Positions 31,044 to 34,537 of a stretch of DNA of 36,150 nt are shown piece after piece; position 1 is the first letter of the stretch, and each line of letters starts with the position of its first letter. The notes under the pieces were generated by a model. The model was given only the letters and a program-made list of their open reading frames with translations, did not search any database and was not told the DNA's origin. Origin of the DNA: Propionispora vibrioides (GTDB lineage: Bacteria > Bacillota > Negativicutes > Propionisporales > Propionisporaceae); NCBI RefSeq assembly GCF_900110485.1, contig NZ_FODY01000034.1:1-36150 (forward strand). Direction: 5' to 3'. The position numbers were made by a program, and so were the translations under genes.

Positions 31044-31077
31044 TTGTCATATATTTGTCATAAATATCCTCTATAGT
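31044..31077 (+). promoter_or_regulatory. Pho-box-like promoter 1
   Basis: TTGTCAT (31044-31050), 4 bp ATAT, TTGTCAT (31055-31061), then 11 bp from the second TTGTCA to the -10 TATAGT (31072-31077). Two 7-bp direct repeats 4 bp apart, 10-11 bp ahead of the -10, is the known layout of PhoB-activated promoters. It points toward a gene-free stretch ending in a terminator. Confidence 0.65.
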
Positions 31078-31083
31078 AAAAGT

Positions 31084-31218
31084 TGTCCACCATGCAATAC
31101 AGTCTGGCAGAGTTGCTGCTGCCGGACGAAAACTAATAGAGGGTCATCCTCTATTAACAATATTCTCATACTCCTCTGTTGTAGTCCCTCTATGTCAAGA
31201 TAGGGGGACATTTTTTTT
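31084..31218 (+). ncRNA. Candidate small RNA (about 135 nt)
   Basis: A short untranslated unit runs from the Pho-box-like promoter to a terminator. It contains a perfect hairpin TAATAGAGG-gtcat-CCTCTATTA (31134-31156). The terminator is GTCCCTCTA (31184-31192) with TAGGGGGAC (31201-31209), then eight T. The GAGG of the first hairpin can also pair with the CCTC of the terminator, so the two may exclude each other. The only ORF has 14 codons (from ATG 31092) and no ribosome binding site. The next gene is on the opposite strand. It is a small RNA by inference. Confidence 0.5.
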
Positions 31219-31240
31219 GCGGGGGTAACGGGTTGTATAA

Positions 31241-31276
31241 CAAAAGGTGAGCTTGATGGGGCAAGCTCACCTTTTG
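31241..31276 (-). terminator. Terminator of the HAD phosphatase gene
   Basis: CAAAAGGTGAGCTTG (31241-31255) is a perfect inverted repeat of CAAGCTCACCTTTTG (31262-31276). It directly abuts the minus-strand stop codon. Read on the minus strand it ends in CACCTTTTGTTAT. Confidence 0.85.
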
Positions 31277-31891
31277 TTATAGTAAAGTCAAAATCTCATG
31301 GGGTTTTTGGAAGATGTGGGTAGCCGGTAAATCAGGCGTTTTACTGCCCCAAAGCGCCAAACCGAAGTCGATGCCGGCCTGGCCGGCACAACGCTGATCA
31401 TAGGCGGTATCGCCGATATATAACGCTGTTTCGGGCCGGGCACCGGAAAGCTCGAGGTATTTTAAGAGCGGCTCCGGGTGAGGTTTGTGCTTTGCTGTGT
31501 CATCGGCGCAGACAATGAAAGATAGATATTTCATCAACCCAAAGGGAATGAAATCCTTTGTTAATTCGGCTTTTGTTTTGGAGGTCACAATGCCTGTGGG
31601 AATATGGCGGGCACCCAGCTCGGACAATACCGTCTCAATGCCGGTAAAGACAGTGATCGTGTGAAAATAATCATTCATATAATTGTCCCATTTGGCGAGG
31701 GCCTGCTCTTTGTTGCGGATAGACAGCTTTTCCAACGCGGCCATGCCCGGAATGCCCAAGGCAAAATGCAATTCTTCGCAAGTATATTGTTTTTGGCAGC
31801 TTTCACTAAGAACTCTTTGCAGTGCCAACAAGATGGCCTGCTCTGTATCAATCAGAGTGCCATCCACATCAAAGATGACCGTTGCATACAT
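31277..31891 (-). CDS. HAD superfamily phosphatase (phosphoglycolate phosphatase-like)
   Basis: 204 residues. Motif I DVDGTLIDT near the N-terminus gives the nucleophile Asp and the acid/base Asp. Motif II is IVTSKT and motif III/IV is KPHPEPLLKYLEL...YIGDTAYD. An alpha-helical cap (about 20-85) puts it in subclass I. It resembles Gph, PpaX or PgmB phosphatases of small phosphoesters; the substrate is not known. The start is the ATG complementary to 31889-31891, with GAAGGAGGC upstream; the frame continues to 32050 without a better start. It is divergent from the Arg/Glu/His-rich gene at 32093. Confidence 0.9.
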   Translation of the reverse strand: MYATVIFDVDGTLIDTEQAILLALQRVLSESCQKQYTCEELHFALGIPGMAALEKLSIRNKEQALAKWDNYMNDYFHTITVFTGIETVLSELGARHIPTGIVTSKTKAELTKDFIPFGLMKYLSFIVCADDTAKHKPHPEPLLKYLELSGARPETALYIGDTAYDQRCAGQAGIDFGLALWGSKTPDLPATHIFQKPHEILTLL

Positions 31892-32030
31892 GAAGATGCC
31901 TCCTTCTACCATTTGCCCCAAGGTGCCTTGGCAGGAAGCCTGGCTGCCGGGACAGGGAATTATACTAATTATATTATAGGGGGAAAGGGAAAAGGATGGC
32001 CAGAAAAATATAAAACAAACTGAGTTTATT

Positions 32031-32064
32031 TTGTCACAAAGATGTAACATTTGCCAATTATACT
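32031..32064 (+). promoter_or_regulatory. Pho-box-like promoter 2
   Basis: TTGTCAC (32031-32037), 4 bp AAAG, ATGTAAC (32042-32048), then TATACT (32059-32064). The distance from the second repeat to the -10 is exactly that of promoters 1 and 3 (11 bp after the hexamer). The repeats are less perfect here. Confidence 0.5.
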
Positions 32065-32092
32065 TAAGTCATCAAATCAAGGAGGGATTCCC

Positions 32093-32410
32093 ATGAACAA
32101 GGTCGCTAAAAAAATTATTATTTATTCTATGGTGGGTATCATGCAAATCGGTTTCGGCGCATCCGTACTTGAAGCTTCTCCCCGGCACGATGACGGTGAT
32201 AGAAGGCATCGTTATGAAGAAAGGCAGCATGACCGGGATCAAAGGATCAGAGAAGAAAATCAACGTTATGAAAGAGAAATGCAACGTAGACATAACGAAG
32301 ATGAACGGGAATGGCGTGACCGTCAGAACCGGGAAAAAGAGCACCATGAGGAAGTTATGAGAACCCTGGGCGGGTTGGCACTGCTGGCGGTAATTCTACA
32401 TAATAATTAA
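32093..32410 (+). CDS. Exported Arg/Glu/His-rich protein, paralog 1 (105 aa)
   Basis: A signal peptide at 1-27 (KKIIIYSMVGIMQIGFGASVLEA) is followed by about 60 residues consisting almost only of Arg, Glu, His, Asp and Gln (RHRYEERQHDRDQR..; DEREWRDRQNREKEHHEE). A short hydrophobic tail ends it (TLGGLALLAVILHNN). The start is ATG 32093 with AAGGAGGG (32079-32086); the frame upstream to 32051 lies in the promoter. Its signal peptide is nearly identical to that of the protein at 34184. Not recognised as a named family. Charge and His content suggest binding of anions or metals (inferred). Confidence 0.8.
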   Translation: MNKVAKKIIIYSMVGIMQIGFGASVLEASPRHDDGDRRHRYEERQHDRDQRIREENQRYEREMQRRHNEDEREWRDRQNREKEHHEEVMRTLGGLALLAVILHNN

Positions 32411-32415
32411 TTAAT

Positions 32416-32446
32416 AGCCTCCGGCGCTGCCCGGAGGCTTCTTTTC
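32416..32446 (+). terminator. Terminator after paralog 1
   Basis: AGCCTCCGG (32416-32424) pairs with CCGGAGGCT (32431-32439), followed by TCTTTTC. Confidence 0.88.
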
Positions 32447-32531
32447 TGTTATGAGAAGCTGATAGCAACGAGATAAACCTTCACCTGGACTGCCTGTTTT
32501 GCATACAGTATAGGGAAGGGAGGATAAATAA

Positions 32532-32882
32532 GTGAACCATTTTATTGTTATCAACCTCGCGACAGGGAGTCTTTTTTACTTTGAGGGAAATCAAATGCTG
32601 GGACGATATACCGTAGCAATCGGCCGGCCGGCTACGCCGACGCCGCCGGGCACCTATCAAATCACTGAAAAGGAGATATTACCTCTTCCAGAGCCTGGTG
32701 GTGCGGATCTGGGGTCTCGCCGGCTGATTCTGTCGTCGGCCAAGACCTGTGTACATGGCTCCTGGCATGGTCCGGTGATGGGACAAGTTTCCGGTGGCTG
32801 TGTCAGGATGCGCAACGAAGATATTGAGGAATTATTTCCCAAGGTTGAGGTCGGCACGCCGGTTATTATGATTGGCGAATAG
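32532..32882 (+). CDS. L,D-transpeptidase (YkuD domain), compact
   Basis: 116 residues, essentially only the YkuD catalytic domain. His75 lies in CVHGSW, and the catalytic Cys90 in VSGGCVRMRNEDIEEL, the full family signature. PATPTPPGTYQI near residue 35 is also typical. L,D-transpeptidases form 3-3 cross-links or attach proteins to peptidoglycan. It starts at GTG 32532 after GGGAGG (32517-32522). There is no signal peptide or LysM domain, unlike B. subtilis YkuD (LysM). Export or a sporulation role is therefore unclear. Confidence 0.9.
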   Translation: MNHFIVINLATGSLFYFEGNQMLGRYTVAIGRPATPTPPGTYQITEKEILPLPEPGGADLGSRRLILSSAKTCVHGSWHGPVMGQVSGGCVRMRNEDIEELFPKVEVGTPVIMIGE

Positions 32883-33028
32883 CCGTCAGATAGTCTGTTT
32901 GGACAATCGGCCCGCTCCACCCAACGGGGGAACGGGTTGATTACTAAACAGAAAGAATTCTGCCAAAACGTTTACCAAATCGATAGAGTTTACATAGTAT
33001 ATAAAAAGAGCGGGAGGAGGTGTCTTCT

Positions 33029-33199
33029 ATGGAACGCTGCCCATATTGCGGCCTTGATTTGTCACGCTCACCCCGGATTATCATTGCCGCCGGCGGTTGG
33101 GGTGCTCCCTGGGGTTGGGGAGGCTGGTATCCATGGTGGCATGGTGGCTGGGGCCATGGACATGGACATGGCTGGTGGCGGAATCGGTATTACCGCTAA
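33029..33199 (+). CDS. Zinc-ribbon-like Trp/Gly/His-rich small protein (56 aa)
   Basis: Not recognised as a family. It starts MERCPYCGLDLS, a half zinc ribbon with one CxxC pair. The tail is unusual: ten Trp, 13 Gly and five His, with GWG and HGHGHGWW repeats, ending RNRYYR. GGGAGGAGGTG (33012-33022) precedes ATG 33029, a near-consensus site. Another frame (32937-33218) is also open, but this one has the better ribosome binding site and a coherent composition. Metal binding is likely from Cys and His; the role is unknown. It is followed by a gap and the terminator at 33298. Confidence 0.65.
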   Translation: MERCPYCGLDLSRSPRIIIAAGGWGAPWGWGGWYPWWHGGWGHGHGHGWWRNRYYR

Positions 33200-33297
33200 G
33201 GAGGCTTTCAGGACGTAAAGACAGTGTGCAGACTACGTAAGCGGTATTGCTGCTTTAGACCGGTTAAAAAAGGTTTCTGATTACCGGTAAAGATGAA

Positions 33298-33335
33298 GGC
33301 TTCTGCAATAAAATTTGCAGAAGCCAAATTTTTTA
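33298..33335 (+). terminator. Terminator after the Trp/Gly/His-rich gene
   Basis: GGCTTCTGCAA (33298-33308) pairs perfectly with TTGCAGAAGCC (33315-33325), followed by AAATTTTTTAT. Confidence 0.88.
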
Positions 33336-33432
33336 TCAGGAAGTGTGCCGGGAGAATGACAAAAATTTACATACAGAGGCTGATATAATAGCAAGTGCTG
33401 CGGCAACAGATAAGACAAAAGGGGGAATAGTT

Positions 33433-33519
33433 GTGTTGACGGATGTAGTATATGGATTGATTTCCATTGGAATAATAACGGCAAGTTCTATTCTTTGTAT
33501 ATATTTTAAGCTGCCATAG
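33433..33519 (+). CDS. Tiny single-span membrane protein (28 aa)
   Basis: Not recognised. Nearly the whole peptide is one membrane helix (VVYGLISIGIITASSILCIYF), ending KLP. The start is GTG 33433, with AAAGGGGGAA (33418-33427) at the right distance. A -10-like TATAAT lies at 33384-33389. It is followed after 32 bases by a second tiny membrane gene, so the two probably form an operon. Peptides of this size usually are accessory subunits of a larger membrane complex, but no partner is visible here. Confidence 0.5.
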   Translation: MLTDVVYGLISIGIITASSILCIYFKLP

Positions 33520-33551
33520 GCGCTTTGATTATTCATAAAGGGGTGAAGGCG

Positions 33552-33647
33552 ATGAATACTGAATGGACCCATCCGATTATCATTTTTACAGGGCTGTTAC
33601 TGCTCTATACCATCGGGGTTTCCGTTATATCTCTGTTTAGCCATTAA
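33552..33647 (+). CDS. Tiny single-span membrane protein (31 aa)
   Basis: Not recognised. A polar start (MNTEWTHP) precedes one membrane helix (IIIFTGLLLLYTIGVSVISLF) and the end SH. AAAGGGGTGAAGG (33537-33549) is a strong ribosome binding site before ATG 33552. A terminator follows at 33671. It pairs with the 28-aa gene upstream; opposite polarity of the charged ends could place the two helices antiparallel (inferred). Confidence 0.6.
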   Translation: MNTEWTHPIIIFTGLLLLYTIGVSVISLFSH

Positions 33648-33670
33648 ACAAGCTGAACAGGCCAGGACGT

Positions 33671-33698
33671 ACCGCTTGCGTAAGTAAGCGGTTTTATT
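33671..33698 (+). terminator. Terminator after the tiny membrane genes
   Basis: ACCGCTT (33671-33677) pairs with AAGCGGT (33686-33692), followed by TTTATTAT. Confidence 0.8.
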
Positions 33699-33898
33699 AT
33701 CGTCATCCTTCCAGCGCGGGGTAAGCCTAAATAACTTTTTTCGTTGAGGGCATACTAAGTGCCGGAAAACTAGTGGTCCGTTTTAAGGTGCAAATTCAAT
33801 TGGCGGGAATTGTTCTGCAAGGCAGTCTTGCCGAATAATATCTGCAAAGTAATTGCAATTGCAAAGTAGATGGGCCATTGGGGATGAGAGGTGATCCA

Positions 33899-34072
33899 AT
33901 GAGCAGTTTACGGGAAATTGAAAGCAAGATTCAGGATTTACGGGCTCAACTTTATGAAATTGCCCGTGACAGAGAATTTACTGACCCGGAAGTCATAAAA
34001 GCGAGCCAAAAGCTTGATCAGGTACTTAATGAATATGAGCAATTTTTTAAAAGGAAAATGAGTGGGAAATAA
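33899..34072 (+). CDS. Spo0E-like sporulation regulatory phosphatase (57 aa)
   Basis: 57 residues forming a predicted helical hairpin. The Spo0E family signature is SQKLDQVLNEY at residues 38-48 (family form SQxLDxxIxxY). Such proteins dephosphorylate response regulators, classically Spo0A~P, and delay sporulation. The start is ATG 33899 directly after GAGAGGTGATCCA; the ATG at 33878 has no ribosome binding site. Transcribed alone, just before the third Pho-box-like promoter. Supports a spore-forming host. Confidence 0.85.
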   Translation: MSSLREIESKIQDLRAQLYEIARDREFTDPEVIKASQKLDQVLNEYEQFFKRKMSGK

Positions 34073-34119
34073 TGTCGGGAACTTGACTAACTTGAACATA
34101 AAAATAATAGACGGTCAGG

Positions 34120-34153
34120 CGATCATAATTCTGTCATAAATACCAATTATACT
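34120..34153 (+). promoter_or_regulatory. Pho-box-like promoter 3
   Basis: CGATCAT (34120-34126), 4 bp AATT, CTGTCAT (34131-34137), then TATACT (34148-34153), again 11 bp after the second hexamer. The second repeat is the exact E. coli Pho-box heptamer and the first is degenerate. Confidence 0.58.
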
Positions 34154-34183: not shown

Positions 34184-34537
34184 ATGAGGGGAATTGGCAA
34201 GAAAGTGGTTGTCTGGTCACTGGTAGGGATGCTGCAAATCGGTTTCGGTGCTTCGGTCATTGAAGCGTCACCGTTTCAGAATGGAGCTCCGCCGGCCCAA
34301 CAATATGGCAGGCACGATCAAGACCGGGAGCGGCACGAGCGGGAACGCTTGGAAAGAGAGCGGCATGAACAGGAACGGCGGGAAAACGAAAGACATGAAA
34401 GGGAAATGAAACGCCGTCCCCATGAAAGCCGGAAAGAGTGGCATGAAAGACAACACCGTGAAATGGAGCGCCATAGAAGAGCGTTGGAAGACATCCGTAC
34501 AGGCAGATATATGCATCCAGGGTTTGGCCGTCCATAG
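34184..34537 (+). CDS. Exported Arg/Glu/His-rich protein, paralog 2 (117 aa)
   Basis: A signal peptide at 1-29 (GKKVVVWSLVGMLQIGFGASVIEA) is followed by a short Gln/Pro linker. Then come about 65 residues of Arg, Glu and His in heptad-like order (ERHERERLERERHEQERREN, and HERQHREMERHRR), probably a long charged helix. The end GRYMHPGFGRP differs from the hydrophobic end of paralog 1. GGGAGGG (34171-34177) precedes ATG 34184. The shared QIGFGASV[LI]EASP cleavage region and promoter type show common origin and likely common regulation. Function unknown. Confidence 0.82.
   Translation: MRGIGKKVVVWSLVGMLQIGFGASVIEASPFQNGAPPAQQYGRHDQDRERHERERLERERHEQERRENERHEREMKRRPHESRKEWHERQHREMERHRRALEDIRTGRYMHPGFGRP

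Follow-up and report, generated by a model that had tools for sequence, protein, structure and literature searches.

Bacillus-type PhoP, a regulator of the OmpR/PhoB family, recognizes TTAACA repeats. Direct repeats of another word mark three promoters in a 36,150-nucleotide stretch of the Propionispora vibrioides genome (assembly GCF_900110485.1, contig NZ_FODY01000034.1), which spans an entire contig (C34) of this 4.4 Mb genome and is termed the window below. The presence of spore-related genes and outer-membrane-like proteins, together with kinship tables, suggests a Sporomusaceae-like organism within the Negativicutes. The word of these repeats is close to that of the Pho box of Escherichia coli pstS, TGTCATAAAACTGTCATA (PMC10294691); mycobacterial PhoP likewise requires 7-bp repeats with a 4-bp spacer (PMC4832192), and hence the layout alone cannot name the regulator. 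Streptococcal CiaRH acts on TTTAAG-N5-TTTAAG repeats, and its strongest promoters drive small RNAs (PMC8186281). Small RNAs also target two-component systems, as in the repression of E. coli phoPQ by MicA and GcvB through pairing at the translation start of the response regulator (PMC3536696). An original prediction, made from the window sequence, had placed the three promoters in a phosphate-starvation or similar envelope-stress regulon. Our analysis points to a real OmpR/PhoB-type two-component regulon, which extends across the class and is distinct from the Pho regulon.

The three promoters lie where that prediction had put them, at 31044, 32031 and 34120, and do have an identical geometry, namely two heptamers separated by a 4-bp gap and followed by a -10 element ten bases past the second heptamer (11 past its first six bases). 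The repeats of promoter 1 are perfect, as had been stated. The elements are as follows:

31044..31061 (+): box 1, TTGTCAT-ATAT-TTGTCAT (TTGTCAT-N4-TTGTCAT), predicted regulator binding site, 32.1 bits; box to -10 identical at 34/34 positions in the sister species
31072..31077 (+): -10 element TATAGT of promoter 1, after N10; the box replaces the normal -35
32031..32048 (+): box 2, TTGTCAC-AAAG-ATGTAAC (TTGTCAC-N4-ATGTAAC), weaker, 21.7 bits; box to -10 identical at 33/34 positions in the sister species
32059..32064 (+): -10 element TATACT of promoter 2, after N10
34120..34137 (+): box 3, CGATCAT-AATT-CTGTCAT (CGATCAT-N4-CTGTCAT), 22.3 bits; recurs in the sister species, with corresponding boxes ahead of most homologues
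34148..34153 (+): -10 element TATACT of promoter 3, after N10

A loose search of the window for TGTCATN4TTGTCAT with 3 mismatches returned 15 occurrences against 8.65 by chance, i.e., barely above chance, so that sites 2 and 3 are weak on the motif alone and require independent evidence; heptamer-gap counts across 0.5 Mb of the genome's own sequence were uninformative. We therefore rely on a matrix whose training set was nine boxes, all taken from other genomes and all linked to a two-component cluster. This cross-genome matrix finds exactly three positions above 8 bits in the window, which are the three noted sites and bear out the earlier view that they share one regulon; the maximum in the background was 12.7 bits among 718,776 positions in 360 kb of the same genome, taken from contig C1. 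When the box was combined with the -10 element (at most 2 mismatches), the whole genome yielded 20 occurrences versus 1 for the reversed pattern, a search that missed site 2, the weakest of the three. In the sister species (G002), site 1 is 100% and site 2 97% identical, against 71-83% for the adjacent intergenic DNA, and site 3 is also present. The box-to--10 spacing of promoter 1 further recurs at the cluster-linked promoters of relatives. A normal -35 is absent at these promoters, its position being occupied by the box, which fits an activator that would act beside the polymerase.

The system to which these boxes are linked is encoded on another contig (C7). It comprises a response regulator with Response_reg and Trans_reg_C domains typical of the OmpR/PhoB family (L012:6041-6718) and a partner histidine kinase with HAMP, HisKA and HATPase_c domains (L012:6715-8121), whose two membrane helices enclose a sensor region of ~130 residues. 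Just 3' of these two genes is a perfect box, ahead of a gene for a 224-residue exported protein (L012:8367-9041) with two ~60-residue repeats and a conserved K.INN.W motif. This protein has no clear Pfam or NCBIfam family and may serve as an accessory protein or a partner of the sensor. Inspection by eye revealed no box ahead of the two-component operon itself.

This arrangement is found well beyond the genus. A search with the kinase matched 12 of 30 genomes. The kinase gene is followed by the box in 11 of them, and the remaining one (G014) has its exported-protein gene at another locus, likewise preceded by a box. Both two-component genes and the box are also present in one relative (G005), where no more than a remnant comes after the box, its one box genome-wide. 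A profile of the exported protein and the box were then both searched in 120 genomes of the class. Among 26 scoreable exported-protein loci, 25 have a box of at least 24 bits ahead of the gene, and 21 have a kinase motif just upstream. The box lies between the kinase and exported-protein genes in at least 21 genomes, which belong to different families of the class. The number of boxes per genome has a median of 8 where there is a strong match to the exported protein versus 0 otherwise (Mann-Whitney p = 2e-17, phylogeny ignored), and two or more boxes occur in 31 of the 33 genomes with the cluster protein versus 11 of the 87 without it. The boxes are direct repeats of a fixed 11-bp period linked to regulator genes, as expected of the OmpR/PhoB type, and the recognition region of the linked regulators (FSREQLLTNVWGYDF.GDDRTVDATIKRLRQK) is nearly invariant. 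Linkage and co-occurrence together suggest that the linked regulator would bind the boxes directly. Its DNA-binding domain has that of E. coli PhoB as the nearest solved structure, which accounts for a PhoB-like word in a different system. Identity with Cpx or Bae was rejected, both proteins falling well below the cut-offs of the family models (CpxR 155 vs 341, BaeR 170 vs 380, CpxA 154 vs 486, BaeS 200 vs 603 bits).

As had been proposed, the targets in the window are a putative small RNA and two paralogous exported proteins. The latter are:

32093..32410 (+): exported paralogue 1, 105 amino acids, behind promoter 2; signal peptide followed by a charged body rich in His, Glu and Arg; not assigned to a family by Pfam or NCBIfam
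34184..34537 (+): exported paralogue 2, 117 amino acids, behind promoter 3

Their family is present in 19 of the 30 genomes searched, with a box ahead of most homologues. The boxes of the genome itself were surveyed by pattern searches and in fetched stretches of sequence, and the boxed genes named from their translations and, where listed, Pfam. Among them are the genes for the cluster protein, for several exported and very small membrane proteins, and for a candidate outer-membrane protein that is barrel-like, as well as those for an HtrA protease, a SpoIID-like lipoprotein and a protein resembling efflux adaptors. The boxed genes with a clear target thus code mostly for exported or membrane proteins, joined within the genus by an extracytoplasmic protease, and the regulon is probably an envelope response, for which envelope stress would be the activating signal. 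Accordingly, of the two signals first offered, the bracketed envelope-stress alternative fits best and phosphate is set aside by the boxes at pstS (see below). One box-like site on contig C3 (L028:1501-1534; 226082) sits within an inverted repeat ahead of a gene for a YafY-like regulator, which may be the protein that uses it.

No coding gene follows site 1 on its strand; the site probably drives a small RNA, whose start is placed ~7 nucleotides past the -10 element:

31084..31218 (+): putative small RNA, ~135 nucleotides, with two stem-loops, a hairpin exposing a 14-nucleotide loop, and a terminator
31144..31170 (+): antisense segment TCATCCTCTATTAACAATATTCTCATA, complementary to the response-regulator gene start ATGAGAATATTGTTAGTCGAGGATGA
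31184..31218 (+): intrinsic terminator, with a GTCCCTCTAT / ATAGGGGGAC stem and then eight consecutive T

The predicted fold is stable (-48.8 kcal/mol, z = -5.1), and the RNA is identical to its counterpart in the sister species at 132 of 134 positions (98.5%), as against 71% for the bases before its promoter unit, 75% for those after it, and 90-95% for the neighboring genes. It thus combines a predicted promoter of its own, a stable fold, a terminator and conservation exceeding that of its flanks, as would be expected of a trans-acting antisense small RNA. Rfam gave no match above the gathering score at 31084-31218; the RNA is confined to the two species, searches of more distant relatives having recovered no counterpart. 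Across the genome collection, a 21-nucleotide core matched once, in an Aliifodinibius assembly, which we take as chance. When the RNA core was compared with both genomes, the three best non-self matches (E-values 6.6e-5 to 4.3e-4) were all antisense at response-regulator start codons, namely those of an OmpR-type gene on contig C6, its counterpart in the sister species, and a NarL-type gene on contig C8. The duplex with the C6 gene spans ~27 nucleotides with one G-U pair and one mismatch (-44.2 kcal/mol), and its complementarity is kept in the sister species; as the duplex targets were picked for matching, the ranking of energies is not independent and the E-values are the fairer measure. Immediately 3' of the segment, CTCCTC (31171-31176) could pair with a ribosome-binding site. 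At the C6 locus (L107:7071-9985), a response regulator, a histidine kinase and a second response regulator lie in a row beside a flagellin gene. The first of these regulators (L107:7071) is the likely target, and its silencing by the small RNA is plausible.

The most direct alternative for the three sites is the PhoB phosphate-starvation regulon as first proposed, which would account for a box word and spacing like those of the E. coli Pho box and for a regulator whose DNA-binding domain is nearest to that of E. coli PhoB. We consider it highly improbable in view of the pst genes themselves, found on contig C7 (phoU, pstS, pstB and a response regulator). The pstS promoter of this genome reads TTAACA-N5-GTAACA-N5-TTAACA, with a best TGTCAT-matrix score of -6.9 within 300 bp upstream, and repeats of the TTAACA-N5-TTAACA type stand directly upstream of pstS in 14 of 21 pstS loci, those of this genome and 13 relatives; among the rest, the best repeat pair is just past the gene in 4 of 21, and 3 of 21 (one on a short contig) have no clear pair. 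A TGTCAT box is absent from all 21 loci: matrix scores reach at most 2.5 in the upstream regions of one set of them and 10.2 anywhere in the loci of another set. The two box types coexist within the same genomes, and a pst box differing from that of the window is what the original prediction itself had named as speaking against phosphate control. Its reading of the layout as PhoB-type holds insofar as the box is close to that of E. coli; the 7+4+7 geometry also serves mycobacterial PhoP and does not single out PhoB. Further, pattern searches recovered no recognizable phosphate gene among the boxed genes of the genome. The linked regulator also scores below the cut-off of the NCBIfam PhoB model (233.7 vs 296.2 bits) and below the pst-linked regulator, which at 272.1 bits itself misses the cut-off, making this a weak test on its own. 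A different alternative leaves only site 1 to the linked system and gives sites 2 and 3 to another OmpR-family regulator, e.g., a WalR-like one reading TGTAA-type repeats. Site 2 does contain ATGTAAC, and TTGTAAC-N4-TGTAAC-like repeats occur at some homologues, including those in genomes that gave no match to the linked kinase. Nevertheless, we regard this as quite unlikely, as both sites stand far above background with a matrix built from linked boxes, and clear TGTCAT boxes precede many homologues of the genes behind them.

Several observations nonetheless weigh against a single class-wide envelope regulon. Some homologues of the window paralogues have TGTAAC variants or lack a box, suggesting that a second regulator may share some of the sites. 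Of the 20 sites of the genome, about a third lie within genes or have no evident target, and these may be noise. The box at HtrA is confined to the genus, apart from a weaker one in one further relative, and we rejected it as a class-wide feature. The co-occurrence statistic takes no account of phylogeny, six genomes that lack a strong match to the linked protein hold 3-6 boxes, and the restriction of the small RNA to two species leaves too few sequences for a covariation test of its structure. That restriction also favors viewing the 'small RNA' as a decayed, inverted response-regulator fragment or an unused transcript. Its minus strand reads MRILLIEDDPLL, which is like the start of a response regulator, so that an inverted gene start may be the origin of the RNA, and its complementarity could reflect ancestry and not function. 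This explanation appears improbable, though less so than the other two: from the box to 31210, alignment with the sister species shows identity at 166 of 168 positions, compared with 71-75% in the flanks and 90-95% in nearby genes, and the element retains a complete promoter, a fold with z of -5.1 and a terminator. A still-recognizable response-regulator fragment on the minus strand was rejected, as its reading gave no Pfam match.

We accordingly favor an account in which the three sites are operators of the linked OmpR/PhoB-family regulator (C7, L012:6041-6718), encoded elsewhere in the genome. When active, it would bind each box as a head-to-tail dimer, replacing the missing -35 and switching the promoter on. 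Its targets would be the kinase-adjacent two-repeat exported protein, the two window paralogues, the outer-membrane-barrel-like protein, the small membrane proteins and, within the genus, HtrA. The small RNA (31084-31218) would be one further target and, once expressed, would cover the start-codon region of the C6 regulator mRNA (L107:7071), blocking its translation. Taken as a whole, with its operators, envelope targets and repressing RNA, we consider this account likely. More tentative, and on balance rather doubtful, is the broader proposal of a class-wide envelope system of diderm Firmicutes that reads a PhoB-like word, to which a genus-level small RNA, derived from an inverted piece of the 5' end of a response-regulator gene, was added to silence another two-component system via its start codon.

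Elsewhere in the window, a Spo0E-like sporulation regulator (Pfam) is encoded at 33899-34072, directly ahead of site 3. A 56-residue Gly/Trp/His-rich protein at 33029-33199, with the N-terminus MERCPYCG, resembles half a zinc ribbon and has no Pfam family. A tiny membrane protein at 33552-33647, MNTEWTHPIIIFTGLLLLYTIGVSVISLFSH, resembles a 32-residue protein behind a box on contig C14 (L024); the window copy has no Pfam family, and no box was found before its gene.

Our searches of open-access papers turned up no published account of this system, and it is apparently undescribed; what is new is the system, the small RNA and the fact that a Pho-like word is reused, the type of mechanism being already known. 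Envelope monitoring in outer-membrane-bearing Firmicutes is largely undescribed, and a regulator, box, target list and class-wide distribution are now supplied for it. The case also cautions that an E. coli-like Pho box need not mean phosphate control, and the small RNA would link two two-component systems. With E. coli PhoB this system shares nearly the same 7+4+7 direct-repeat word (TGTCAT-N5-TGTCAT; PMC10294691) and the nearest solved DNA-binding domain, but here pst has TTAACA repeats, and the likely targets comprise a small RNA besides exported and membrane proteins. Bacillus-type PhoP is likewise an OmpR/PhoB-family regulator on direct repeats of 11-bp period, and its type of box is found at pstS of this very genome; however, its word differs, and the pst-type box is not at the three sites. 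CiaRH is comparable as a two-component system with direct repeats, small RNA promoters and a tie to HtrA, but has another word and other genes in a monoderm host, with homology not shown beyond the general family. The Cpx and Bae systems offer a two-helix membrane sensor kinase and, among likely targets, an adjacent exported protein and an HtrA-type protease (here in the genus only), whereas the present proteins fall below the CpxR, BaeR, CpxA and BaeS cut-offs and the box differs. Finally, like MicA and GcvB on phoPQ, the small RNA would pair at a response-regulator start, but it is unrelated to them, and its 27-nucleotide complementarity lies within a coding start typical of response regulators.

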